Shown here piece after piece: positions 7,877-27,548 of a stretch of DNA of 38,988 bases. The DNA is taken from assembly GCA_030039155.1 (NCBI GenBank), contig JASHQL010000348.1, positions 1 to 38,988 on the forward strand, given 5' to 3'. This DNA is from Streptosporangiaceae bacterium. Lineage in GTDB: Bacteria; Actinomycetota; Actinomycetes; Streptosporangiales; Streptosporangiaceae. Below the pieces are notes generated by a model. That model did no database searches. It saw nothing but the letters and a program-made list of their open reading frames with translations, and was not told the origin of the DNA. Positions within the stretch are counted from its first letter, which is position 1. Every line of letters begins with the position of its first letter. A program made the position numbers and the translations under genes.

Positions 7877-8105
7877 TCAGCCGGCGCCGCCGCGGCGGCG
7901 GACAAGCTCGTAGATGTGCCCGCCAGGGTCGGCGAAGTAGGCGGTGCGCGGGCCCCAGCGGCGATGTGTCGTCCTCCCGGTCGACTTCAAGGCCGAGCAC
8001 ATCGGTGTAGGACTCCTTCGCCTCGGCCAGGTCAGGAACGAACAGTTCGATGACGCCGATTTCGTTGTCCCAGGTGATCACGTGTGCGCCTTTCGTTCCC
8101 GTCAT
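7877..8105 (-). pseudogene. VOC (glyoxalase/bleomycin-resistance fold) protein, internally deleted and frameshifted
   Basis: Reading on the minus strand from ATG 8105 (or GTG 8081, which has AAAGG nearby), the first part encodes a normal VOC N-terminus: WDNEIGVIELFVPDLAEA, SYTDVLGLEVDREDDTS. The normal C-terminus, RRWGPRTAYFADPGGHIYEL, then TGA at 7879-7877, follows almost at once but in another frame. VOC domains of this type have about 120 residues; here only some 40 plus 27 remain, so roughly 50 codons between the EDD and RPWGPR motifs are lost and the frame is broken. The in-frame continuation is an Arg/Pro-rich string of no recognisable family. Could be an assembly error, but loss of a whole domain centre makes a real deletion more likely. 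Confidence 0.8.
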
Positions 8106-8183
8106 GATGGTGAGCCTGGCCCTCGCACCCCAGGACTGCGCGCGACAGCCAGGCTCATCGGCCGCGCTGTCGGTATCGGTCGG

Positions 8184-8189
8184 TACTGT
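8184..8189 (+). promoter_or_regulatory. -10 box TACTGT of the SigG-like sigma gene, leaderless
   Basis: TACTGT followed by seven bases and GTG 8197; no Shine-Dalgarno sequence in between and no clear -35. Confidence 0.5.
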
Positions 8190-8196
8190 TGCCAGG

Positions 8197-9288
8197 GTGA
8201 GCGTGACCGGGCGCACTGCCGTCGATGAGCTGAGCCTGCTGCGGGCGGCCGCGGCTGGCGACGAGGCCGCGTTCGGCGAGCTGGTCGAGATGCACCGGGC
8301 GGGGCTGCGGGCGCACTGCTACCGCATGCTCGGCTCGCTGCACGATGCCGAGGACGCGCTGCAGGATGCGTTGCTGCGCGCGTGGCGAGGGCTCGCCGGG
8401 TTCGAGGGCCGCAGTTCGGTGCGCGGCTGGCTGTACGCCATCGCGACCAACGCGGCCATCGACGTGACCAGGCACCGGGCGCGGCGCGAGCTGCCGGTCA
8501 GCTTCGGGCCTGCCGCTGGGCCCGGCGCCGACATGGACGAGGCGGTGCTCGACCCGATCTGGATCGAGCCGTTCCCTGACCGGCTGCTGCCCGCCGAGCC
8601 TGCCCTGCCGGAGGCCAGCTACGAGCAGCGTGAGGCCATCGAGATCGCGTTCGTCGTGGCGCTGCAGGCGCTGCCAGCGCAGCAGCGCGCGGTGTTCCTG
8701 CTCAGGGAGGTGCTCGGCTTCTCGGCCGCGGAGATCGCCGGCCAGCTCGGCACCTCGGTCGCCTCGGTGACCAGCCTGCTGCAGCGGGCCCGCGCCAGGG
8801 TGCAGCGGACCGGGCCGGCCACCAGCCAGCAGGCAACCTTGCGCGCGCTCGGTGACCAGCGGATCAGGCAGACGGTGCGGCAGTACGCCGATGCGCTTGA
8901 GCGCGGCGATGCGGACCGGCTCATCGCCATGCTGACCCGCGACGCTACCTGGTCCATGCCGCCGATCCCGACCTGGTTCAGCGGTCATGACCGGATCAGG
9001 GAGTTCCTGCTCAGGTGGCCGCTGACCGACACCTGGATGCACGCACCGGTCCGCTGCAACGGCCAGCTTGCACTCGGCTGCTACCTGTTCGACGACGAGA
9101 CCGGCAACTTCGAGCCCGCGGTGATCGACGTGCTGACGATGGCCGATGGCGGGATCTCGGCGATCACCGCATTCATGTCGTCGGACATGTTCAGGCAGCC
9201 GGCGGCAGCCGGCGGCTTCACCGGGCCCGAGTTGTTCGGGTTGGTCGGGCTGCCGGCCGTACCGGAGGCCACGGCCGCCGAAGACTAG
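8197..9288 (+). CDS. ECF sigma factor of the SigG/TIGR02960 type with SnoaL-like C-terminal domain
   Basis: 363 residues. Sigma region 2 about 10-95 (DEAAFGELVEMHRAGLRAHCYRM, HDAEDALQDALLRAW, WLYAIATNAAIDVTRHR); an acidic linker 100-140 with DPIWIEPFPDRLLP typical of this group; region 4 about 145-205 (LPAQQRAVFLLREVLG, AAEIAGQLGTSVASVTSLLQRAR); SnoaL/NTF2-like domain about 220-350 (YADALERGDADRLIAML, TWSMPPIPTWFSGHD). The C-terminal domain modulates sigma activity in related factors, so no anti-sigma gene is needed and none is seen. Start at GTG 8197 fits the TACTGT box seven bases upstream; a GTG two codons later is the alternative. It may control the hydrolase gene ten bases downstream or distant targets. 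Confidence 0.9.
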   Translation: MSVTGRTAVDELSLLRAAAAGDEAAFGELVEMHRAGLRAHCYRMLGSLHDAEDALQDALLRAWRGLAGFEGRSSVRGWLYAIATNAAIDVTRHRARRELPVSFGPAAGPGADMDEAVLDPIWIEPFPDRLLPAEPALPEASYEQREAIEIAFVVALQALPAQQRAVFLLREVLGFSAAEIAGQLGTSVASVTSLLQRARARVQRTGPATSQQATLRALGDQRIRQTVRQYADALERGDADRLIAMLTRDATWSMPPIPTWFSGHDRIREFLLRWPLTDTWMHAPVRCNGQLALGCYLFDDETGNFEPAVIDVLTMADGGISAITAFMSSDMFRQPAAAGGFTGPELFGLVGLPAVPEATAAED

Positions 9289-15842: not shown

Positions 15843-17048
15843 ATGCGCCGAGCGCCGAGCGGAACTCGCGCCGTCAGGCTGGCCACGATCCTGGCACTGC
15901 TGGCCGGCTTCGGCTGGCTGGCCGGCACCGGCCCGGCGCAGGCGGCCACCGCCAGCGGGCGCACGTGGCAGGTCGAGCCGACGCCGAACGGGCGCGGCGC
16001 CGGGATCAACGTGCTGGCCGCGGTGTCGTGCACCTCGGCGCAGGCCTGCACCGCCGTCGGCTCGGAGTCGGCGAACGCATCGAGCCCGTCAGCCGCCCTT
16101 GCCGAGCGCTGGAACGGCAGCAGCTGGCGAGTCCAGCAGGCCGCTACCCCCAAGCACGCGACCAGCACCAACCTGTACGGCGTCTCCTGCCCGGCGGCGA
16201 CCGCCTGCACGGCCGTCGGCACCGCCTTCCACAAGACCGGCAGCATCGACGTGAACCTGGCAGAGACCTGGAACGGCACGCGGTGGCGGGTACGGGCGAC
16301 GCCGAACCCGGCCGGCGCAACCGACGGCGGGCTGTACGCCGTGTCCTGCACCTCGGCAACCGCGTGCACGGCAGTCGGCCAGTACAACAACGCAGCCGGG
16401 TTCACGCTCGCGGTCGCCGAGCGCTGGAACGGCTCGGCCTGGCAGATCCAGCCGGTCCCGCAGCCGGCCAAGCGCACCTGGTTCTTCGGCGTCTCCTGCT
16501 CGGCCGCCGACGCCTGCATCGCGGTCGGCTACAAGAACAACGGGTCAGGGGACGCGAAGCCGTTCGCCGAGGCCTGGAACGGCACGAGCTGGCAGGCGAC
16601 GAAGGTGCCGCTGCCGGCCGGCGCTCCCGGCGGGGCGTTGAGCGCGGTGTCCTGCACCGCAGCACGCGCCTGCACGGCGACCGGCACCGACTTCGGTACC
16701 ACCCAGCCGACGCTGGCCGAGCGGTGGAACGGCACAAGCTGGCGGGTGCAGGCCACGCCGAGCCCGGCGAATTTCCGGCAGAGCGCCTCGACCATCAGCC
16801 TGGACGGCGTCTCGTGTACATCGCGCACGGCGTGCGCGGCCAGCGGCGAATACAGCCCAGGCGGCCTGGCTGCCTACTTCATCGAGATGTGGAACGGCAA
16901 GAAGTGGCGGCTCGCTACCGCGCCGGTGCCGGCCGACTTCTCGCATGGCGCGCTGCTTGGCATGGCATGCGCAACTGGCCGGTGCACGGCGGTCGGTGCG
17001 TGGTCGGGCGGAGCGCTCCTGCAAGCGACGCTCGGCCTGGCCAACTGA
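15843..17048 (+). CDS. Secreted repeat protein, probable seven-bladed beta-propeller
   Basis: 401 residues from ATG 15843, with GGGAGA just upstream. Sec signal peptide 1-35 (hydrophobic core LATILALLAGFGWLA, likely AQA-ATA cleavage). The mature protein consists of seven units of about 45-55 residues, each with VSC-x5-C-(T/I)AVG followed by (A)ERWNG-(S/T)SW-(R/Q)VQ...P.P. The last unit stops after the CxxxxC part, and the missing WNG..W..Q-P strand is supplied by RTWQVEPTPN at the mature N-terminus, which is the ring-closing arrangement of propellers. Each blade would hold one disulfide. Extracellular; no enzymatic motif. Similar repeat proteins are widespread in actinomycetes without known function; carbohydrate or surface binding is a guess. 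Confidence 0.82.
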   Translation: MRRAPSGTRAVRLATILALLAGFGWLAGTGPAQAATASGRTWQVEPTPNGRGAGINVLAAVSCTSAQACTAVGSESANASSPSAALAERWNGSSWRVQQAATPKHATSTNLYGVSCPAATACTAVGTAFHKTGSIDVNLAETWNGTRWRVRATPNPAGATDGGLYAVSCTSATACTAVGQYNNAAGFTLAVAERWNGSAWQIQPVPQPAKRTWFFGVSCSAADACIAVGYKNNGSGDAKPFAEAWNGTSWQATKVPLPAGAPGGALSAVSCTAARACTATGTDFGTTQPTLAERWNGTSWRVQATPSPANFRQSASTISLDGVSCTSRTACAASGEYSPGGLAAYFIEMWNGKKWRLATAPVPADFSHGALLGMACATGRCTAVGAWSGGALLQATLGLAN

Positions 17049-19032: not shown

Positions 19033-20097
19033 ATGCGCGTGACAGTGCTGATTCCCGCGCACAACGAGCGCGAGCAGATCGCCGGCACGATCGCGGCGCT
19101 GCGCCTGCAGACCAGGCAGCCTGACCAGATCGTGGTCGTGGCCGACAACTGCGGCGACGACACCGCCGCGGTCGCTGGGCAGGCGGGTGCCGACGTCTTC
19201 ACCACGGCCGGCAACACCGGCCGGAAGGCAGGCGCGATCAACCAGGCACTGGCGCTGTTCCTGCCCGAGGCTGCCGACGACGACTGCGTCCTGGTGATGG
19301 ACGCCGACACCGAGCTGAACGCGCACTGGATCGAGACCGCCGCCGGTGAGCTCAAGGCCGACCCCATGGTCGCGGTCGGCGGCACCTACCTGGGCAAGGA
19401 GGAGACGCCGAGCCTGGTACGCCAGCTGCAGATCAACGAGTTCACCCGCGCTTCCAGGCTGCAGCACCGCAAGAGCCGCAAGAGCGTGTGGTGCCTGTCC
19501 GGCACCGGGACCATGGCCCGTGCCGCCATGCTGCGCCAGGTCGCGGCCTGCCGCGGCACGGTGCTGCCCGGCCGGCCGGGCGATGTGTACGACGCGGAGA
19601 GCTGTACCGAGGATTTCGAGCTGACGCTCGCGGTCAGGACGCTCGGCTATTCCTGCATCATCCCGCGCGGCTGCGAGTCGCATACCGAGGTGATGCCGAC
19701 CGTCAGGACCTGGTTCAACCAGCGGCTGCGGTGGCAGCAAGGCACGCTGGAGTCGCTGCGTGATTACGGCATCACCAAGGTCACCTGGGGCTGGCAAGGG
19801 TGGGCCAGGCAAGGGCTGTTCCACTTCCGGTTCATGGCGCAGTTCCTGCTCTGGTTCGTGCTCATTCACTCGCTGCTGACCACCGGAGCCGGCTTCCCGC
19901 CGCTGATCATCGCAGCGCTGGTGGTGGTGTACTTCGAGCGCATCGTCTCGGTCTGGCGGGCCGGCTGGCGCGGCCGGATCCTCGCGGCGCTGATCGTGCC
20001 GGAGTTCCTGTACGGCTGCTCAGAAGGCGCCTACCTGCTGACCGCTGCCTACCAGGTCATCCGCCGCCAGCCGCTCGCTTCCTGGGGTCATCTGTGA
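19033..20097 (+). CDS. Processive family 2 glycosyltransferase (cellulose/PNAG synthase-like)
   Basis: 354 residues from ATG 19033 (GGGGGG eight bases upstream; an in-frame GTG at 18949 would add a 28-residue stretch of odd composition). The GT-A domain shows VTVLIPAHNE (3-12), Asp43, DAD at 90-92 for metal/UDP-sugar binding, TED 192-194 as catalytic base region and QRLRW 230-234, the QxxRW signature of processive synthases. Three membrane helices follow (about 262-283, 289-308, 315-340), none precedes. Expected to polymerise a sugar nucleotide into a polysaccharide and pass it across the membrane. The stop overlaps the next start (GTGA), tying it to the GH26-NodB protein. Sugar specificity is unknown. 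Confidence 0.9.
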   Translation: MRVTVLIPAHNEREQIAGTIAALRLQTRQPDQIVVVADNCGDDTAAVAGQAGADVFTTAGNTGRKAGAINQALALFLPEAADDDCVLVMDADTELNAHWIETAAGELKADPMVAVGGTYLGKEETPSLVRQLQINEFTRASRLQHRKSRKSVWCLSGTGTMARAAMLRQVAACRGTVLPGRPGDVYDAESCTEDFELTLAVRTLGYSCIIPRGCESHTEVMPTVRTWFNQRLRWQQGTLESLRDYGITKVTWGWQGWARQGLFHFRFMAQFLLWFVLIHSLLTTGAGFPPLIIAALVVVYFERIVSVWRAGWRGRILAALIVPEFLYGCSEGAYLLTAAYQVIRRQPLASWGHL

Positions 20098-21938
20098 GCC
20101 TGCTTGCCGCGTTCGCCGCCGTCATCACGCTGCTGTACGGCGTCTCGGCGCTGGCCAGGATCGCGCCGGTCAAGCGTCGCCATGACACCTGGCGGCAGCT
20201 GTGGGCCGGCGGCCTCATCACCGCGGTCACGCTGGGCGTCGCCGGCTCCGCGTATCTTGCGCTCGACCGCGATGCGATCTCGTTCCCGGCGGACGGCACG
20301 GCGCTGACCGCGCAGGCGACGTCGAGCGAGCTGCCGCTCGGCGTCTTCACCAAGGACGAGGGCAGCTCGTGGACCTCGGTCGCCGCGTTCGGCCAGCAGG
20401 CAGGCCAGCCGGTCCGGTATGTGCTTGACTACCTCGGCCCGTCGCAGCCGTTCCCGGCTCGGCTCGGCGCGGAGGCGGCCGCGCACGGGGCCGAGCCGGT
20501 GCTGCAACTCGAGCCGAAGATGACCATGCGGCAGGTGGCCGCGGGCGACGACGACGGCTACCTGAGCCGGCTCGCCGCCCAGGTGCGCGAATACCGCCAC
20601 CGGGTGGTGCTCAGCTTCGCGCCCGAGGCGAACGGCAACTGGTACCAGTGGGGCTACACCCGCACGCCCGCGGCGCAGTACCGGGCCGCCTGGGCGCATG
20701 TCATGCACGTCTTCCGCGCGGACCGGGACGTCACGTGGATGGACACCATCAACCGGACGTACCCGGGTGCCGGGCGGACAGCCGCCTATATCGTGCCCGG
20801 CGTCTCGATGATCGGCCTTGACGCCTATTACGAATACCCGCATGCGAACTTCGACAGCGTGTTCGGCCAGACGCTGCGCCAGATCCGCGCCGTGACCAGC
20901 AAGCCGGTCATGATCAGCGAGACCGGCGTGGGGCAGGTCAACAGCCAGGCCAGCGCGATCCCCAATCTCGTGCAAGGGGCGCGGGCCAATGGCATCGCCG
21001 GGCTCATCTACTTCGACGAGGACCAGGGCACCGGCAACATCCATCACCAGAACTGGGCGCTGACTCCGGCCGGCGCGGCGGCACTGCGGATAAGCCTGGC
21101 CAGCGGGCCGTCTTCGGTCCCGGTCCTGCTGTACCACGGCATCTACGGGCGGGACGACCCGGAGTCCAACAGCGTCAGCCTGGCCGCGTTCCGCGAGCAG
21201 ATCGCGTACCTGCACGCGCGCGGCTACCACACGATCAGCCCGCGGCAGTACCAGCGATGGGCAGCCGGCCAGCCGGTATCGCTGCCGGCCAGGCCGGTCC
21301 TCATCACTGTCGACTGCAACCAGAGCTCGTTCCTCCGGGCGCTGCCGGTGCTCCGCCAGTACCGCTACCGGGTGGTGATGTACGTGGTGACCGGGTTCGC
21401 CGACGGGGCGTACGGCGGACCAGCCGGCCAGCGCGGCTACTACCTTGACTGGGCGCAGCTGAAGGCGATGTACCGCGCTGGCTATATCTGGCCGCAGTTC
21501 CACGCTGGCCACTGCGGCCACGCGTACGTGACGGCCAGCTCGCCGTTCGGTTGCGGCAAGGGGCTGACTCCCACGCCCGATGCCATCTGGGGCCACCGTT
21601 ACTACAGCGACCCGATGGGCCAGCCGGTCGCCGGCTATCACGGCCGCGTCGAGCGCGATGTGCGGCAGGGGCTTGCCGCGATGGAGTCGGAGTTCGGCCT
21701 GAGCTGGCGGCAGCTCACGGACACGTTCGCGGTGCCGTGGAGCGACTACGGACAGCCGCAGACGACAAACCAGCCGTGGCTGGCCAGCTACTTCGGGCAG
21801 CTGTTCAAGGTCGTCTTCGTCCAGGACAACTGGGTCGCGAAGGACAACTTGCGGTACCGCTACGAGGTAGACCACGGCACGACGCTGGCGCGCTTCACCG
21901 CTGCGCTGCACAGCCAGCTCTTCACCCGGACCGGCTGA
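20094..21938 (+). CDS. Membrane-anchored GH26-like glycoside hydrolase fused to NodB/CE4 polysaccharide deacetylase-like domain
   Basis: 614 residues; GTG 20094 overlaps the glycosyltransferase stop. Two N-terminal membrane helices (about 2-20 and 37-57) anchor the chain outside the cell. Residues 80-335 resemble GH26: SFAPEANGNWYQWG holds the acid/base candidate Glu178 and VMISETGV the nucleophile candidate Glu276. Residues 340-610 resemble polysaccharide deacetylases of the PgaB/IcaB branch: VPVLLYHGIY (342-351), VLITVDCNQ where TFDDG is expected (Asp407 kept, metal-binding Asp replaced by Cys408), FHAGHCGHAY (His470/473/476) in the HSxxH position, and FAVPWSDYG in the FAYPxG position. Presumably trims and/or deacetylates the polymer made by its coupled synthase. 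The altered metal site leaves deacetylase activity open. Confidence 0.85.
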   Translation: MSLLAAFAAVITLLYGVSALARIAPVKRRHDTWRQLWAGGLITAVTLGVAGSAYLALDRDAISFPADGTALTAQATSSELPLGVFTKDEGSSWTSVAAFGQQAGQPVRYVLDYLGPSQPFPARLGAEAAAHGAEPVLQLEPKMTMRQVAAGDDDGYLSRLAAQVREYRHRVVLSFAPEANGNWYQWGYTRTPAAQYRAAWAHVMHVFRADRDVTWMDTINRTYPGAGRTAAYIVPGVSMIGLDAYYEYPHANFDSVFGQTLRQIRAVTSKPVMISETGVGQVNSQASAIPNLVQGARANGIAGLIYFDEDQGTGNIHHQNWALTPAGAAALRISLASGPSSVPVLLYHGIYGRDDPESNSVSLAAFREQIAYLHARGYHTISPRQYQRWAAGQPVSLPARPVLITVDCNQSSFLRALPVLRQYRYRVVMYVVTGFADGAYGGPAGQRGYYLDWAQLKAMYRAGYIWPQFHAGHCGHAYVTASSPFGCGKGLTPTPDAIWGHRYYSDPMGQPVAGYHGRVERDVRQGLAAMESEFGLSWRQLTDTFAVPWSDYGQPQTTNQPWLASYFGQLFKVVFVQDNWVAKDNLRYRYEVDHGTTLARFTAALHSQLFTRTG

Positions 21939-22770: not shown

Positions 22771-23844
22771 CTAGGCCTCTGGCTCGGCCCCGGCTGCGAC
22801 CGCCGCCGGCTCTCGCCCCCGGCCATGTGGCCACAGCGCGTAGCCGGCCGGGAGCAGCTTTGCCTTGTCGGGCAGCAGGCCCCAGATGCCGCGTGGCACC
22901 CAGATGGCGATCGCGATCGTCAGCAGGCCGAGCACGATGTAGGACCAGCTACCGTCTGGCGCGAGCCACTGCTGCACAGCGAACACCAGCACGGATCCGG
23001 CGATCGGGCCCTCGATGGTGCCGATGCCACCGATCAGCACAGCGAAGATCATCATGGCCGACCACTGGATTGAGAACGCGGACGACGACTGGAGATACGG
23101 TGCCCGCACGACCTCCAGTGCCCCTCCCGCGCCGCAGCCAGCCGCGGCAATCGCGAAGACAAGCAGCCGGGTGCCTCCGGCCTGGCCGCCGACGGTGCGG
23201 GCGGCTGACTGGTCATCATGCACAGCCCGGAGCACCCGCCCCGGCTTGCTGCGCATGATCACGTAGACGGCGGCTAGCGCGACGACAACGACGCCAAGGC
23301 TCAGCCAGTACACCGTGTCGGTCAGGGATGCGGGACTGCCCTTCGGCAGGCCGGGCAGCGTCCTGCCGATGGTGCCGCCGAGCGACGGGTACCTGCTGAT
23401 GATCAGGTAGCAGTCGGCTGCTATGACCAGGGTGGCAAGTGCAAAGAAGGGACTGCGCAGTCGCCAGAGCAGCGACCAGACCGCGACCCCGAGGGCGGCG
23501 CAGCCGAGCACTGCGGCCGGCAGGGCGAGCAACGGCTTGGTGCCATGAACCGCCAGGGCCAGGACGACGTAGCACCCGAGGCCGAAAAACGCCTGCTGCC
23601 CGAGCGAGATCAGGCCAGCGTAGCCAGCCAGCAGGTTCCACATGCTGGCCAGGATGATCAGGATGAAGAGCCTGGCGAGCAGGCTCGTGGCATGCCCGTG
23701 CAGCAGGCCGGGCAGGGCTGCCAGGCCGCACAGCAGCACCACCGCCACGGCGCCTGGCCACAGCGATGACCGGCCCGGCGTGCCCGGATCCGGCCCAGAT
23801 AGCACCGGAGCGGCCGCCGCGTGCTGCGGCCGAGACCTGGTCAT
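22771..23844 (-). CDS. LivM-like branched-chain-type ABC permease, second copy
   Basis: 357 residues from ATG 23844, which overlaps the stop of the preceding permease (ATGA). Nine to ten membrane helices with the LivM hallmarks MWNLLAGYAGLISLGQQAFFGLG near the N-terminus and the cytoplasmic EAA-type loop GGIGTIEGPIAG near the C-terminus. Ends in an Ala/Glu-rich hydrophilic tail. It is a clear paralogue of the permease at 24851-25939, sharing the block IFAVLIGGIGTIEGP and the tail layout. Forms the second permease pair of a HAAT-family importer whose only ATPases and binding protein are encoded upstream. Confidence 0.92.
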   Translation of the reverse strand: MTRSRPQHAAAAPVLSGPDPGTPGRSSLWPGAVAVVLLCGLAALPGLLHGHATSLLARLFILIILASMWNLLAGYAGLISLGQQAFFGLGCYVVLALAVHGTKPLLALPAAVLGCAALGVAVWSLLWRLRSPFFALATLVIAADCYLIISRYPSLGGTIGRTLPGLPKGSPASLTDTVYWLSLGVVVVALAAVYVIMRSKPGRVLRAVHDDQSAARTVGGQAGGTRLLVFAIAAAGCGAGGALEVVRAPYLQSSSAFSIQWSAMMIFAVLIGGIGTIEGPIAGSVLVFAVQQWLAPDGSWSYIVLGLLTIAIAIWVPRGIWGLLPDKAKLLPAGYALWPHGRGREPAAVAAGAEPEA

Positions 23845-24710
23845 GCCAGCTGCCGCCTGCCGGTGACGCCTTCCGGCCTGATCAGCAGCATCGCCAGGAA
23901 GAACAGCTGCGGCGCAAGGAGCTGGTCGCTCGGGCTGATCTGCGCGCCGATCTGCTGGACCACGCCGAGCAGAATGCCGCCCGCCAGGGTTCCCCACAGC
24001 GATCCGAGACCGCCGATCACCACCGCCTCGAAGGCGAGCAGCAGCAGCTGAGTGCTGCCTGTCGTCGGGTCTACCACGCTGTACAGGCCGTACGAGGTCC
24101 CGGCGATCGCCACGGCCACCATCGCGATGGCGCCTGCGATCCCGAACAGGTGCCCCTGGCCGACCGCTGACAGCTCAGCCGCGCCGCGGCCGTCTGGCAC
24201 GGCCCTGAACTGCCTGCCGAGCCCGCTCGCCGACAGCAGCAGCTGGAGGACGATCAGTACCACCACCGCGACGATGAGGAAGGCCAGGTCCAGGTAGCTG
24301 ACCGTGATCTTGGACCCGATGCTGAGCTGATTGGACAGCGCCCCGATCTGCAGGTTGTGCGGAGTCGCCGTGAGGAACTGCTGCAGGCCGCTCTCGATCA
24401 CGATCGACAGGCCGAAGGTGACCAGCAACGCGGTCGGCGCCCCCCGGTTCAGGCTGGCCTGCAGCAGGACGCGCTGGCCCACATATCCCAGCACGGCGAA
24501 CACCGGCACGGTCAGCACGATCGCTTCCGGTGTCGACAGGTGCCCGACTGCGACCAGGCCGGCCGCCAGGTAGGCAGCCACCACGGCGAGGTCGCCGTGC
24601 GCCACGTTGGTGAACTTCATGACGCCGAATACGACCGCGAGGCCGTAGCCGAGCAGGGCATACAGGCCTCCGAGCGCCACACCCTGCACGACGTCGTTGG
24701 CCCAGATCAC
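23841..24710 (-). CDS. LivH-like branched-chain-type ABC permease, second copy
   Basis: 289 residues beginning (M)IWANDVVQGVALGGLYAL, about eight membrane helices. Conserved LivH blocks: GVMKFTNVAHGDLAVVAAYLA near the N-terminus and AFEAVVIGGLGSLWGTLAGG before the last helices. The GTG start at 24710 is fixed by homology to the first copy, which begins at exactly the same residue; there is no Shine-Dalgarno site but the start overlaps the stop of a possible 14-codon leader frame. Pairs with the LivM-like protein that follows with ATGA overlap. Confidence 0.92.
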   Translation of the reverse strand: MIWANDVVQGVALGGLYALLGYGLAVVFGVMKFTNVAHGDLAVVAAYLAAGLVAVGHLSTPEAIVLTVPVFAVLGYVGQRVLLQASLNRGAPTALLVTFGLSIVIESGLQQFLTATPHNLQIGALSNQLSIGSKITVSYLDLAFLIVAVVVLIVLQLLLSASGLGRQFRAVPDGRGAAELSAVGQGHLFGIAGAIAMVAVAIAGTSYGLYSVVDPTTGSTQLLLLAFEAVVIGGLGSLWGTLAGGILLGVVQQIGAQISPSDQLLAPQLFFLAMLLIRPEGVTGRRQLA

Positions 24711-24751
24711 GGCACCATGGGCAGGACGGCATCGGCCGGGAGCATCCGCAT
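24707..24751 (-). CDS. Possible 14-residue leader peptide upstream of second livH
   Basis: ATG 24751 opens a frame MRMLPADAVLPMVP that ends with TGA at 24709-24707, overlapping the GTG of the livH-like gene by two bases (GTGA). TACTGT lies six bases before the ATG. The livH-like gene lacks a ribosome binding site, so translation could be initiated on this mini-frame and passed on by coupling. Inferred only from geometry. Confidence 0.35.
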   Translation of the reverse strand: MRMLPADAVLPMVP

Positions 24752-24757
24752 CTGGCC

Positions 24758-24763
24758 ACAGTA
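24758..24763 (-). promoter_or_regulatory. -10 box TACTGT in front of the second permease pair
   Basis: TACTGT on the minus strand, six bases before ATG 24751. If active, it gives the second permease pair its own transcript, separate from the upstream ABC genes. No consensus -35 at 16-18 bases. Confidence 0.42.
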
Positions 24764-24831
24764 GCGAGGTTGAGCTTGATTTCCTGCTGATTTGCCTGAT
24801 CAGGCGCTATCTGGTGGACCGCGCCCGGCCC

Positions 24832-24846
24832 GGCGGCCGGCCCGCC
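24832..24846 (-). terminator. Small GC hairpin after the first permease pair
   Basis: GGCGG-GCCGG-CCGCC on the minus strand begins four bases after the stop of the first LivM-like gene (stop at 24853-24851). Five GC pairs and no U tract: a weak terminator or attenuator in the 140-base gap between the two permease pairs. Confidence 0.35.
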
Positions 24847-24850
24847 GTGG

Positions 24851-25939
24851 CTAGGTCACCTGCTCGGCGTCTTCGCCAGCGACAGCAGCCTCCGGTGGTC
24901 CCAATCTTTGGCCCGCTGGCCACAGCCAGTATCCGACCGGGAACAGCTTGAGCCTGTCAGAGATCAGGCCCCAGATCCCGCGCGGCGCCCAGATGGCGAC
25001 CGAGATCGCGATCAGGCCGAGCACGATGAAATACCAGGTGCCGTAGTGGGCAAGCCACTGCTGCAGGGCGAAGAACACGATCGTGCCGATGATCGGCCCC
25101 TCGATCGTGCCGATGCCGCCGATCAGCACCGCGAAGATCATCTCGGCCGACCACTGCACCGAGAAGGCCGGCCCTGGCTGCAGGTACGGCGCGCTGATGA
25201 CCTCGAGCGCGCCCGCCGCGCCGCAGCCCGCGGCCGCGATCACGAACACCAGCAGCTGGGCCCGGCCGACCCTGACACCCACGCTGCGCGCGCCGGTCTC
25301 GTCGTCGCGCACCGCGGTGAGCTCGAGCCCGAGGCGGCTGCGCAGCACCAGGTAGACGCACACCAGGGTGATCGCGGTAACCGCGAGCGTGGTCCAGTAG
25401 ATGTACGCATCCAGGTATTTGATGTTGATGTTGGGCAGGCCAGGCATGAACTCGCCGGTGCCGCCGCCGAGCGACGGGTACCTGATGATGATCAGGTAGC
25501 AGACCGATGCGACGACCCAGGTGGCGATCGCGAAGTAGCCGCTGCGCAGCCTGGACAGCAGCCACCAGACGACCAGGCCGAGCGCGGCGCAGCCGACCAC
25601 CGCGATTGGCAGGCCGACGAACGGATCGACCCCGTGCAGGGCCCCGATCAGCACGAAGTAGGAGCCGAAGCCGAAGAATGCCTGCTGGCCGACCGACACC
25701 AGCCCGGTGTAGCCGGCCAGCAGGTTCCACATGCTGGCCAGGATCAGCAGGATGAAGAAGTTGACGAGCAAGCTCGTGGTGCCCGAGTACACCCGGTACG
25801 GCAGGTAGGCCAGCACCGCGATCACGGCGATCGCGCCAAGGCCGGACCAGATTGCGGACCGCCGTGACCTGGTCACCCTGACGCCGGGCGCCAGCCCGGC
25901 CGCCGAGACGCTGGCAGGCTGCCTGGTGCGGGCGCTCAT
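24851..25939 (-). CDS. LivM-like branched-chain-type ABC permease, first copy
   Basis: 362 residues from ATG 25939, overlapping the stop of the preceding LivH-like gene (ATGA). An Arg-rich N-terminus (RVTRSRRSAIW) is followed by nine to ten membrane helices; characteristic segments are MWNLLAGYTGLVSVGQQAFFG, YLIIIRYPSLGGGTGEF and the EAA-like loop LIGGIGTIEGPIIG. Together with the LivH-like partner it forms the membrane channel of a HAAT-family importer for amino acids, amides, urea or aromatic acids. Followed by a small hairpin and a second permease pair. Confidence 0.93.
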   Translation of the reverse strand: MSARTRQPASVSAAGLAPGVRVTRSRRSAIWSGLGAIAVIAVLAYLPYRVYSGTTSLLVNFFILLILASMWNLLAGYTGLVSVGQQAFFGFGSYFVLIGALHGVDPFVGLPIAVVGCAALGLVVWWLLSRLRSGYFAIATWVVASVCYLIIIRYPSLGGGTGEFMPGLPNINIKYLDAYIYWTTLAVTAITLVCVYLVLRSRLGLELTAVRDDETGARSVGVRVGRAQLLVFVIAAAGCGAAGALEVISAPYLQPGPAFSVQWSAEMIFAVLIGGIGTIEGPIIGTIVFFALQQWLAHYGTWYFIVLGLIAISVAIWAPRGIWGLISDRLKLFPVGYWLWPAGQRLGPPEAAVAGEDAEQVT

Positions 25940-26811
25940 GCTGTCCTCCGGCTGCCGGTGATGCCCTGCGGCCTGATCACCAGGACCAGGAGGAAGAACA
26001 GCTGCCCGGCCAGCAGCAGGTCGGCCGTGCTGATCTGGGCGCCGATGTCCTGCACGACGCCGAGCAGGATGCCGCCGACCAGCGTGCCCCAGAGCGAGCC
26101 GAGACCGCCGATCACCACCGCCTCGAACGCGAACAGCAGCAGCAGCTGCGTCGTTCCCGTGGTCGGGTCAAACGTGGTGTACACGCCGTAGGCCGTGCCG
26201 GCGACCGCCACGGTGCCGAACGCGATGGCCGCGGCGATGCCGAAGATGTGCCGGTAGTCGGCGCCAGCGAGCTGGGCCGCCTCCCGGTCGTCTGCCACCG
26301 CCCTGATCAGGCGTCCTTGCCTGGTCCTTGACAGGAAGAGCTGCAGCCCGAGCAGCACCACGACCGCGGCGATCAGGATGGCCAGGTCCAGGTAGCCGAC
26401 GGTGATCTGAGATCCGACGTTGAAGTGGTCGGTGGCGAGCGCGCCGATGCTCAGCGAGCGGGAGTTGGCGGAGAAGAACTGCTGCAGCGCATTCTCGATC
26501 ACGATCGACATGCCGAACGTCACCAGCAGGGTGGTCAGCACGCTCCGGTTCAGGCTGGCCTGCAGCACGGTGCGCCAGAGCACGTAGCCGATGATCGCGA
26601 ACAGCGGGATCGACACCAGGATCGACAGCGCGGTCGGCATGTGCAGCACGGTCACCAGGCCGGCCGCCAGGTATGCCGCGACCACTGCCAGGTCGCCGTG
26701 CGCCAGGTTGATGACCTTCATCACGCCGAACATCAGCGACAGGCCGCAGGCGAACAGCGCGTAGAGGCCGCCGAGCAGCACGCCCTGCACGATGTCGTTG
26801 ACCCAGATCAC
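25936..26811 (-). CDS. LivH-like branched-chain-type ABC permease, first copy
   Basis: 291 residues starting at GTG 26811, whose last two bases are part of the LivF-like stop (GTGA). The start is chosen for the (M)IWVNDIVQGVLLGGLYAL beginning shared with the second copy; the longer open frame upstream runs through the ATPase gene. About eight membrane helices with GVMKVINLAHGDLAVVAAYLA and AFEAVVIGGLGSLWGTLVGG. One residue longer than the second copy in the QLLLL(F)AFEA region. Couples by ATGA to the LivM-like gene. Confidence 0.93.
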   Translation of the reverse strand: MIWVNDIVQGVLLGGLYALFACGLSLMFGVMKVINLAHGDLAVVAAYLAAGLVTVLHMPTALSILVSIPLFAIIGYVLWRTVLQASLNRSVLTTLLVTFGMSIVIENALQQFFSANSRSLSIGALATDHFNVGSQITVGYLDLAILIAAVVVLLGLQLFLSRTRQGRLIRAVADDREAAQLAGADYRHIFGIAAAIAFGTVAVAGTAYGVYTTFDPTTGTTQLLLLFAFEAVVIGGLGSLWGTLVGGILLGVVQDIGAQISTADLLLAGQLFFLLVLVIRPQGITGSRRTA

Positions 26812-27548
26812 GGCCGCTCCTGGGGCAGCCCAGCCGGGCCGGCCAGGCCGAAGTAGGCAGCCTCGATGCTGGCAGGGGTCAGGCCAGCCGGCTCCCCCTC
26901 CAGCGTGGTCCTGCCCTCGAGCAGGCAATGCACCCGCGCGGCGACCGCGAGGGCCTGGCTCACGTCCTGCTCCACCAGCAGCACGGTGACTCCGGTGGCC
27001 AGCAGCTCAGGCAGGATGCCGTAGATCCGCCGGACCACCGCGGGCGCTAGCCCGAGTGACAGCTCGTCAAGCAGCAGCAGCCTGGGGTTGGCCACCAGCG
27101 CCCTGCCGATCGCCACGGCCTGCTGCTCGCCGCCGGACAGCTGGTCGGCCCGCTGACCGCGGCGGTCCCGCATCCAGTCGAACAGCTCGTAGACGCGGCT
27201 GATGGTCCACGGCCCCTTGCGCGCATAGGAGGCGCCGACCTTGAGGTTCTCCGCGACGGTCAGCGAGGAGAACAGCCGGCGGCCCTCAGGTACCAGCACG
27301 ATCCCGGACGCGACCCGGCGCTCCGGGCGGAGCTTGGTGACGTCCACGCCGTCCAGGGTGATGCTGCCGGAAGTCGGCCGGTCGAGGCCGGCGATCGCGC
27401 GCAGCAGGGTGGACTTGCCGGCCCCGTTCGCGCCGATCATGGCGTAGGTCTCGCCGACGCCGACGCTCAGGCTGACCTCGTACAGCGCACGAAGCTGGCC
27501 GTGGTGCACGGTGAGGTCCCGCACCTCCAGCAGCGGCCCGCCGGTCAT
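26808..27548 (-). CDS. LivF-like ABC ATPase
   Basis: 246 residues from ATG 27548, overlapping the LivG-like stop (ATGA). Walker A GANGAGKST (39-47), the LivF-type VLVPEGRRLFSSLTVAENL, signature LSGGEQQ, Walker B LLLLDELSLGL and the family-typical Q-containing switch VEQDV are intact. One of two nucleotide-binding subunits of the importer. With no other liv-type ATPase in the window, it must serve both permease pairs, unless the second pair uses remote partners. Confidence 0.95.
   Translation of the reverse strand: MTGGPLLEVRDLTVHHGQLRALYEVSLSVGVGETYAMIGANGAGKSTLLRAIAGLDRPTSGSITLDGVDVTKLRPERRVASGIVLVPEGRRLFSSLTVAENLKVGASYARKGPWTISRVYELFDWMRDRRGQRADQLSGGEQQAVAIGRALVANPRLLLLDELSLGLAPAVVRRIYGILPELLATGVTVLLVEQDVSQALAVAARVHCLLEGRTTLEGEPAGLTPASIEAAYFGLAGPAGLPQERP

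Follow-up and report, generated by a model that had tools for sequence, protein, structure and literature searches.

Does a pair of overlapping genes in a Streptosporangiaceae bacterium encode a compact unit for making an exopolysaccharide, and if so, of what kind? The pair lies on contig JASHQL010000348.1 of assembly GCA_030039155.1 (contig C175 of an incomplete genome assembly of 4.8 Mb in 599 contigs), and the whole stretch of 38,988 nucleotides analyzed here is referred to as the window. The first gene encodes a family 2 glycosyltransferase (GT2), and the second a fusion protein with two N-terminal membrane helices, a GH26 glycoside hydrolase domain and a NodB domain similar to those of PgaB and IcaB. 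On a narrow balance, the pair is probably a synthase-dependent exopolysaccharide unit, in which the fusion protein would supply membrane helices, its GH26 domain would edit the chain and its NodB domain would contact it. Speaking for this reading are the overlap of the two genes, the presence of the same fusion in a second genome, the recurrent linkage of GH26 to GT2, the catalytic Glu pair of GH26, an operon in which NodB and GH26 are separate genes, the N-terminal helix or lipobox of the GH26 partners, the matching helix numbers of paired GT2 and GH26 proteins, and the similar ratios of nonsynonymous to synonymous substitution (dN/dS) in the domains.

Overlap and recurrence of the gene pair

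The stop codon of the GT2 gene and the start codon of the fusion gene share four bases (GTGA). The third-position GC content is 0.91 for GT2 and 0.92 for the fusion gene, a strong coding bias typical of real genes here. The coordinates, the overlap and the 614-residue length given in an earlier reading of the sequence (the original prediction) were all exact on re-reading.

The full GH26-NodB fusion is found in one other genome among 343 of the same family. This genome (G135) belongs to a second genus, and its fusion protein shares 79% identity with that of the window over 613 residues. In 395 genomes drawn from across the class, the matches were to the GH26 half only. A chimera in a metagenome-assembled genome, or a chance arrangement, was rejected as the origin of the fusion, since the whole of it is present in this second, independent genome.

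In comparison, the pairing of GT2 with GH26 appears widespread across actinobacteria, with NodB as a rare add-on. Upstream sequence of 900 nt or more was available for 67 GH26 domains. For 42 of these, the stop codon of a same-strand GT2 lies no more than 450 nt upstream, as compared to 5 of 337 other genes at the same loci (Fisher p = 8e-34, a value that takes the relatives as independent). The original prediction had named homologues with unlinked genes as evidence against it, and these counts do not refute it on that ground. The pairing is also seen in other families (L187-L193, L197, L198), and the partner GT2s are spread over several clades of the tree. They are CelA-like (L052, L099, L103, L187, L188, L093), NodC-like (L092, L057, L054) or PgaC-like, the last being the clade of the window. 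An N-terminal helix or a lipobox is present on the GH26 partners nearly throughout. A search of named genomes for related loci gave only distant Frankia GH26 genes.

The source genome has further copies of GH26, on contigs C362, C48, C577 and C598. The last of these carries a separate exopolysaccharide cluster (L047:8345-18898). Its divergent GH26 is accompanied by a canonical NodB deacetylase, three GT2s and a flippase-like gene, making this the second co-occurrence of GH26 and NodB in this genome. In another genome (G378, contig C146; L086:2630-3847), the GT2 is broken by a stop or frameshift before an intact GH26 gene, through either decay or sequencing error.

GH26 domain

The best match of the GH26 domain in the Protein Data Bank (PDB) is CtCelH/Lic26A (entries 2bvd and 2vi0), over residues 80-313 with an E value of about 1e-10, and both catalytic Glu residues are aligned. 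Together with the conservation of the two residues among relatives (Table 1), this bears out the GH26 identity and the Glu178/Glu276 pair of the original prediction. The Pfam GH26 model gives a marginal score of 18.3 bits (cut-off 20.2 bits), and 20.4 bits in the genome search. In the search that gave 18.3 bits, Polysacc_deac_1 is also sub-threshold, so library annotation may miss both domains of the protein.

NodB domain

The NodB domain matches the PgaB model TIGR03938 over residues 343-536 (E = 4.7e-17), and its matches among solved chains are PDB 5bu6, 3vus and 4wcj (PgaB/BpsB and IcaB-like). The score of 61.5 bits does not reach the equivalog level (321.9 bits), and only the NodB part of the model is matched. 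The fusion protein ends after NodB, and the C-terminal GH153 domain of PgaB is absent.

The two Asp residues of motif 1 in CE4 enzymes have distinct roles, general base for the first and metal ligand for the second (PMC5855634). The general base is kept in the window (Asp407), and the metal ligand is replaced by Cys408, a change that the original prediction does not mention. Among about 40 NodB domains, Cys is found at this position only in the window fusion and its G135 homologue, and the separate-gene NodB relatives have TVDDG or TFDDA as motif 1. In addition, five residues separate the metal His pair, as compared to four in the poly-N-acetylglucosamine (PNAG) type. The loss of the metal Asp does not prove that the domain is inactive, because the deacetylases acting on N-acetylmuramic acid (MurNAc) also normally lack the metal Asp of motif 1 (PMC5855634). 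The homology to PgaB and IcaB in the original prediction stands, and its deacetylase assignment is uncertain because the metal-ligand Asp is Cys. Another NodB protein, which adjoins a GT2 in its genome (L024:538-2067), has TFDTG as motif 1, with Thr at the position of the metal Asp.

Between the window fusion and G135, GT2 has an NG86 dN/dS of 0.17, GH26 of 0.18 and NodB of 0.22, and the helix and linker region has about 0.55, dS being rough in such GC-rich genes. NodB has thus remained under purifying selection despite the loss of the metal Asp. A decaying remnant is disfavored for this domain, as its value is close to that of GH26.

Putative GT2 synthase and its clade

The GT2 matches Pfam PF00535 (E = 2e-20), and its nearest curated families are EpsU (E = 1.5e-15) and PgaC_IcaA (E = 1e-14). 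The equivalog level of PgaC_IcaA is not reached (54.3 bits, cut-off 422.3), and the EpsU score is likewise far under its cut-off. No solved chain was found with this protein in the PDB at E < 0.01. Its sequence places it as a PgaC/EpsU-like enzyme, in a PgaC-like rather than a CelA-like clade. The motif set of processive synthases (DxD, TED and QxxRW) is complete, and the DAD, TED and QRLRW motifs are where the original prediction had placed them. The processivity that it proposed is suggested by these motifs, but of the membrane helices about three are C-terminal and none is ahead of the GT-A domain.

The clade contains 23 sequences (tree support 100/99), and four of its gene layouts include GH26 or NodB. 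In the first, GT2 is followed by a two-helix GH26 protein (G376, G378, G128, G131), and in the second by the two-helix GH26-NodB fusion (the window and G135). In the third, a small helix protein is followed by GT2, NodB and a GH26 lipoprotein (G379, G378), and in the fourth, GT2 is followed by a small helix protein and NodB (G031). The clade has 14 further GT2s, without GH26, and a conserved single-helix protein of 52-66 residues (about 54) is encoded a few bases downstream of them.

The consensus of this small protein is MYNxPPxGGV...FTLxSAxLAVKRILPxR, and it was located directly behind PgaC-like GT2 genes in many genomes of the family, at L153-L166 and L171 (e.g. L159:6531-6731, L166:4875-5039, L155:5282-5443). 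A hidden Markov model (HMM) built on eight of the sequences finds it behind all 14 GH26-less GT2s. The small proteins encoded in the operons of G031 and of G379/G378 come next in its ranking of 11,624 open reading frames. The conserved protein has no Pfam family, and its NCBIfam match is sub-threshold (LAXTG_small_WW, E = 9e-4). It is a candidate synthase subunit. Elsewhere in the clade, one GT2 is fused to an N-terminal FHA domain (L158:4780-6813; Pfam E = 1.5e-15), and the reading frame upstream of it has a GEIDFFE motif, suggestive of GH16.

The membrane anchoring of the fusion protein by two helices, as originally predicted, is borne out. Under the positive-inside rule, the basic loop between the helices would lie on the inner side, and the large domains as well as the N-terminus would face outward. 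There is a correlation between the helices of the two proteins of a pair. In all five pairs in which a complete adjacent GT2 lacks an N-terminal helix, the GH26 partner has two N-terminal helices, and in all 37 in which the GT2 has one or two, the partner has one. Two pairs were set aside in this comparison, one because its GT2 runs off the contig and the other because its GT2 is not a synthase. The five pairs count as a single evolutionary event, because they all belong to one clade.

Helix 1 of the fusion protein and of its GH26 relatives has a terminal motif (SALARIAPVKRR) akin to that of the small single-helix protein. Position, topology and motif agree between the two, and the sequence similarity is weak. 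The HMM of the small protein gave no match to the fusion helix at E < 50, and two GH26-only relatives (L090 and L086) were weakly matched (4-6 bits) at the right place. Direct detection of the fusion's helix with this model therefore failed, and the likeness remains a suggestion.

The two trees place the fusions differently. In the GH26 tree, they group with the GH26 lipoprotein from the operon that contains NodB (SH-aLRT 98), and in the GT2 tree with the NodB-less pair of G376 (100/98). Parts have therefore been exchanged. A broader scheme is conceivable, which we put forward tentatively and with more doubt than belief. A synthase without N-terminal helices would receive them in trans, from a conserved single-helix partner of about 54 residues in one branch. 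In the branch of the window, this segment would have been fused to GH26 and, in two genera, to a NodB with a Cys-His-His site, such that one polypeptide would both complete the channel and edit the product.

Proposed mechanism and alternatives

In the proposed mechanism, the GT2, with its catalytic face in the cytosol and its three C-terminal helices, would polymerize the chain and move it across the membrane. The fusion protein would have its N-terminus outside, the basic loop inside and the GH26-NodB part outside, and its two helices would substitute for those absent from the synthase. GH26 would trim or release the emerging polymer, in the manner of BcsZ, the C-terminal domain of PgaB and the N-terminal domain of PelA. 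NodB on the same chain may be catalytic, as a deacetylase whose metal site has changed to Cys-His-His, or it may be a non-catalytic domain that guides the chain.

Several observations weigh against this mechanism. The substitution of helices rests on weak similarity and on one clade, and helix 1 gives only a weak signal against the small helix protein (hhalign E = 0.0017, probability 15%). NodB has TVDCN rather than TFDDG as motif 1, with loss of a metal ligand. In GH26, the Arg of mannanase subsite -1 is Ser174 and the His of the HE motif is Pro177. Moreover, 25 of the 67 GH26 homologues have no GT2 directly ahead of them, and the neighbors of the pair include no export, regulatory or precursor genes. 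Structure predictions were too poor for use: the mean pLDDT was 41.8 for the GH26 domain, predicted together with three relatives from Frankia, and 42.4 for NodB alone.

The clues to the polymer point in two directions. The kinship of GT2 and NodB favors amino sugars and that of GH26 a beta-1,4 hexan, neither being decisive. An amino-sugar polymer is our first guess, from the kinship with PgaC and PgaB.

A divergent PNAG system would take this kinship literally, with the GT2 as the equivalent of PgaC/IcaA, NodB as a working PNAG deacetylase, and GH26 in place of the GH153 hydrolase. The closest family scores of both proteins agree with such a system, but they are far under the equivalog cut-offs (54 against 422 bits, and 61 against 322 bits). 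The intact motif 1 of the separate-gene NodB relatives also speaks for it, as do the MurNAc deacetylases, which normally lack the metal Asp (PMC5855634). It would still have to accommodate this Cys, the five-residue His spacing and a GT2 without N-terminal helices. In addition, we know of no GH26 with activity on PNAG. We regard this alternative as unlikely.

The product could instead be a beta-1,4 hexose polymer (a cellulose-like glucan, a glucomannan or a mannan) that GH26 trims as BcsZ does, with a NodB that has lost deacetylation and binds only. CtCelH/Lic26A as the closest solved GH26, the many CelA-like GT2s paired with GH26 elsewhere, and the loss of the metal Asp in both fusions are in line with this possibility. 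The CE4-like proteins BA0330 and BA0331 are reported to have no deacetylase activity but roles in cell integrity (PMC4505593). On the other hand, the GT2 of the window is in a PgaC-like clade, and its NodB is still constrained, including Asp407, His470 and His476. The characteristic residues of the mannanase BoMan26B, Arg-197 (subsite -1) and His-200 (HE motif) (PMC6556568), have no equivalents here. Among the actinobacterial GH26 set, the subsite -1 Arg is present in 7 of 61 and the HE-motif His in 41 of 61, and the HE motif is absent also from the xylanase branch and from branches of unknown function (PMC6556568). A specificity for mannan is therefore unsupported. The mannan or mixed-linkage glucan hinted at in the original prediction is weak for the same reason, and the relatives pair with CelA-, NodC- and PgaC-like synthases alike. 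Overall, this alternative is unlikely.

That the pair makes no polymer, with the GT modifying a cell-wall glycan or lipid carrier and the second protein remodeling the cell wall, fits the absence of dedicated export or precursor genes nearby and the close GT2 relatives accompanied by the small helix protein alone, but it is improbable in view of the QRLRW and TED motifs of the GT2 and the recurrent linkage of GH26 with GT2s of the CelA and NodC types, which are plainly those of synthases.

Genomic neighborhood

The synthase-dependent unit, the reading we prefer, is confined to the two genes of Table 1. On its 5' side are a TetR regulator (opposite strand) and an alpha/beta hydrolase. On the 3' side, on the opposite strand, are MsrA and apparent branched-chain amino-acid ATP-binding cassette (ABC) transporter genes. 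The latter (22771-26928, minus strand) appear to include two tandem permease pairs, LivM/LivH-like by eye. Farther away in the window, on the plus strand, are a 401-residue secreted-looking protein with repeated Cys pairs of the CTSAxACTAVG type and no confident family match (15843-17048), and a SnoaL-like domain fused to an extracytoplasmic function (ECF) sigma factor (8050-9288).

Table 1. Features of the GT2 and GH26-NodB gene pair, in coordinates of the window.
Feature	Position	Strand	Basis or details
GT2 gene	19033..20097	+	ATG 19033, stop 20095-20097, 354 aa
GT2 signature motifs	19300..19734	+	DAD 19300-19308 (residues 90-92), TED 19606-19614 (192-194), QRLRW 19720-19734 (230-234)
GH26-NodB fusion gene	20094..21938	+	GTG 20094, stop 21936-21938, 614 aa
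Two N-terminal membrane helices, residues 3-21 and 39-57	20094..20264	+	Basic loop ARIAPVKRR between them
GH26 domain, residues 80-335	20331..21098	+	PDB and Pfam matches, conserved Glu pair
Glu178, predicted acid/base, in PEANGNWYQWG	20625..20627	+	Glu in 60/61 relatives; aligned to CtCelH Glu
Glu276, predicted nucleophile, in MISETG	20919..20921	+	Glu in 56/56 ungapped relatives; aligned to CtCelH catalytic Glu
PgaB/IcaB-like NodB (CE4-type) domain, residues 336-614	21099..21935	+	PgaB model and PDB matches
NodB motif 1 variant, Asp407-Cys408	21312..21317	+	General base kept; Cys at metal-binding Asp position of CE4
NodB motif 2, His470 and His476	21501..21521	+	Metal His pair, five residues between

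Comparison with known systems

No account of a GT2 coupled to a GH26-NodB protein was found in the literature searched. For GT2-GH26 operons, the same search, which had subscription papers outside its coverage, gave only WpsE. The three-way unit of GT2 and GH26-NodB fusion is thus rare and apparently undescribed. The original prediction did not recognize the combination as described. It is the NodB fusion that is rare; the coupling of GT2 to GH26 is common in actinobacteria, and WpsE is already published. The pair offers a compact two-gene system for asking which polymer is made, whether GH26 can be a biosynthetic editor as opposed to a degrader of plant biomass, and whether a CE4 fold can work with a Cys metal ligand. 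The broader pairing of GT2 with GH26 and the small helix subunit, a candidate unnamed in current family libraries, may be more generally useful than the fusion itself.

WpsE belongs to the wps-1 cluster of Actinoplanes missouriensis and is another GH26 protein encoded by an actinobacterial exopolysaccharide cluster that includes a GT2 (PMC13390465). In comparison to the window, this is a Wzx/Wzy-type cluster of 11 genes, and there is no NodB fusion. The MatAB system of Streptomyces, also actinobacterial, is a PNAG locus of two genes that has GT2 and CE4 domains, and an IcaD-like role has been suggested for MatA (PMC5972031). However, MatB is a GT2-CE4 fusion, GH26 is absent, and the CE4 is closest to PgdA rather than PgaB.

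As in PgaBC of E. coli and IcaAB of Staphylococcus, the window has a GT2 with the DAD/TED/QxxRW motifs and a PgaB-like NodB, predicted to lie on the outer face. PgaB also combines glycoside hydrolase and NodB domains within one protein (CE4-GH153; PMC5933820), and the small membrane subunits PgaD and IcaD assist the PNAG synthase (PMC7112194). The window differs in that the hydrolase is GH26 rather than GH153 and is N-terminal, NodB has the Cys, the GT2 lacks N-terminal helices, and the partner spans the membrane. PelA (GH166-CE21) likewise has an N-terminal hydrolase followed by a deacetylase domain in one protein, acting on the polymer of a membrane synthase (PMC12022489). Its families are different, it has four domains, and it belongs to the large pel operon, none of which is present here.

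For cellulose, the BcsA synthase works with BcsZ, a GH8 endo-hydrolase that trims the product. Many of the GT2s linked to GH26 are similarly CelA-like, whereas that of the window is not. The principle of synthase, hydrolase and deacetylase seen with PNAG, Pel and cellulose would, with the gene pair described here, extend to GH26 in actinobacteria.

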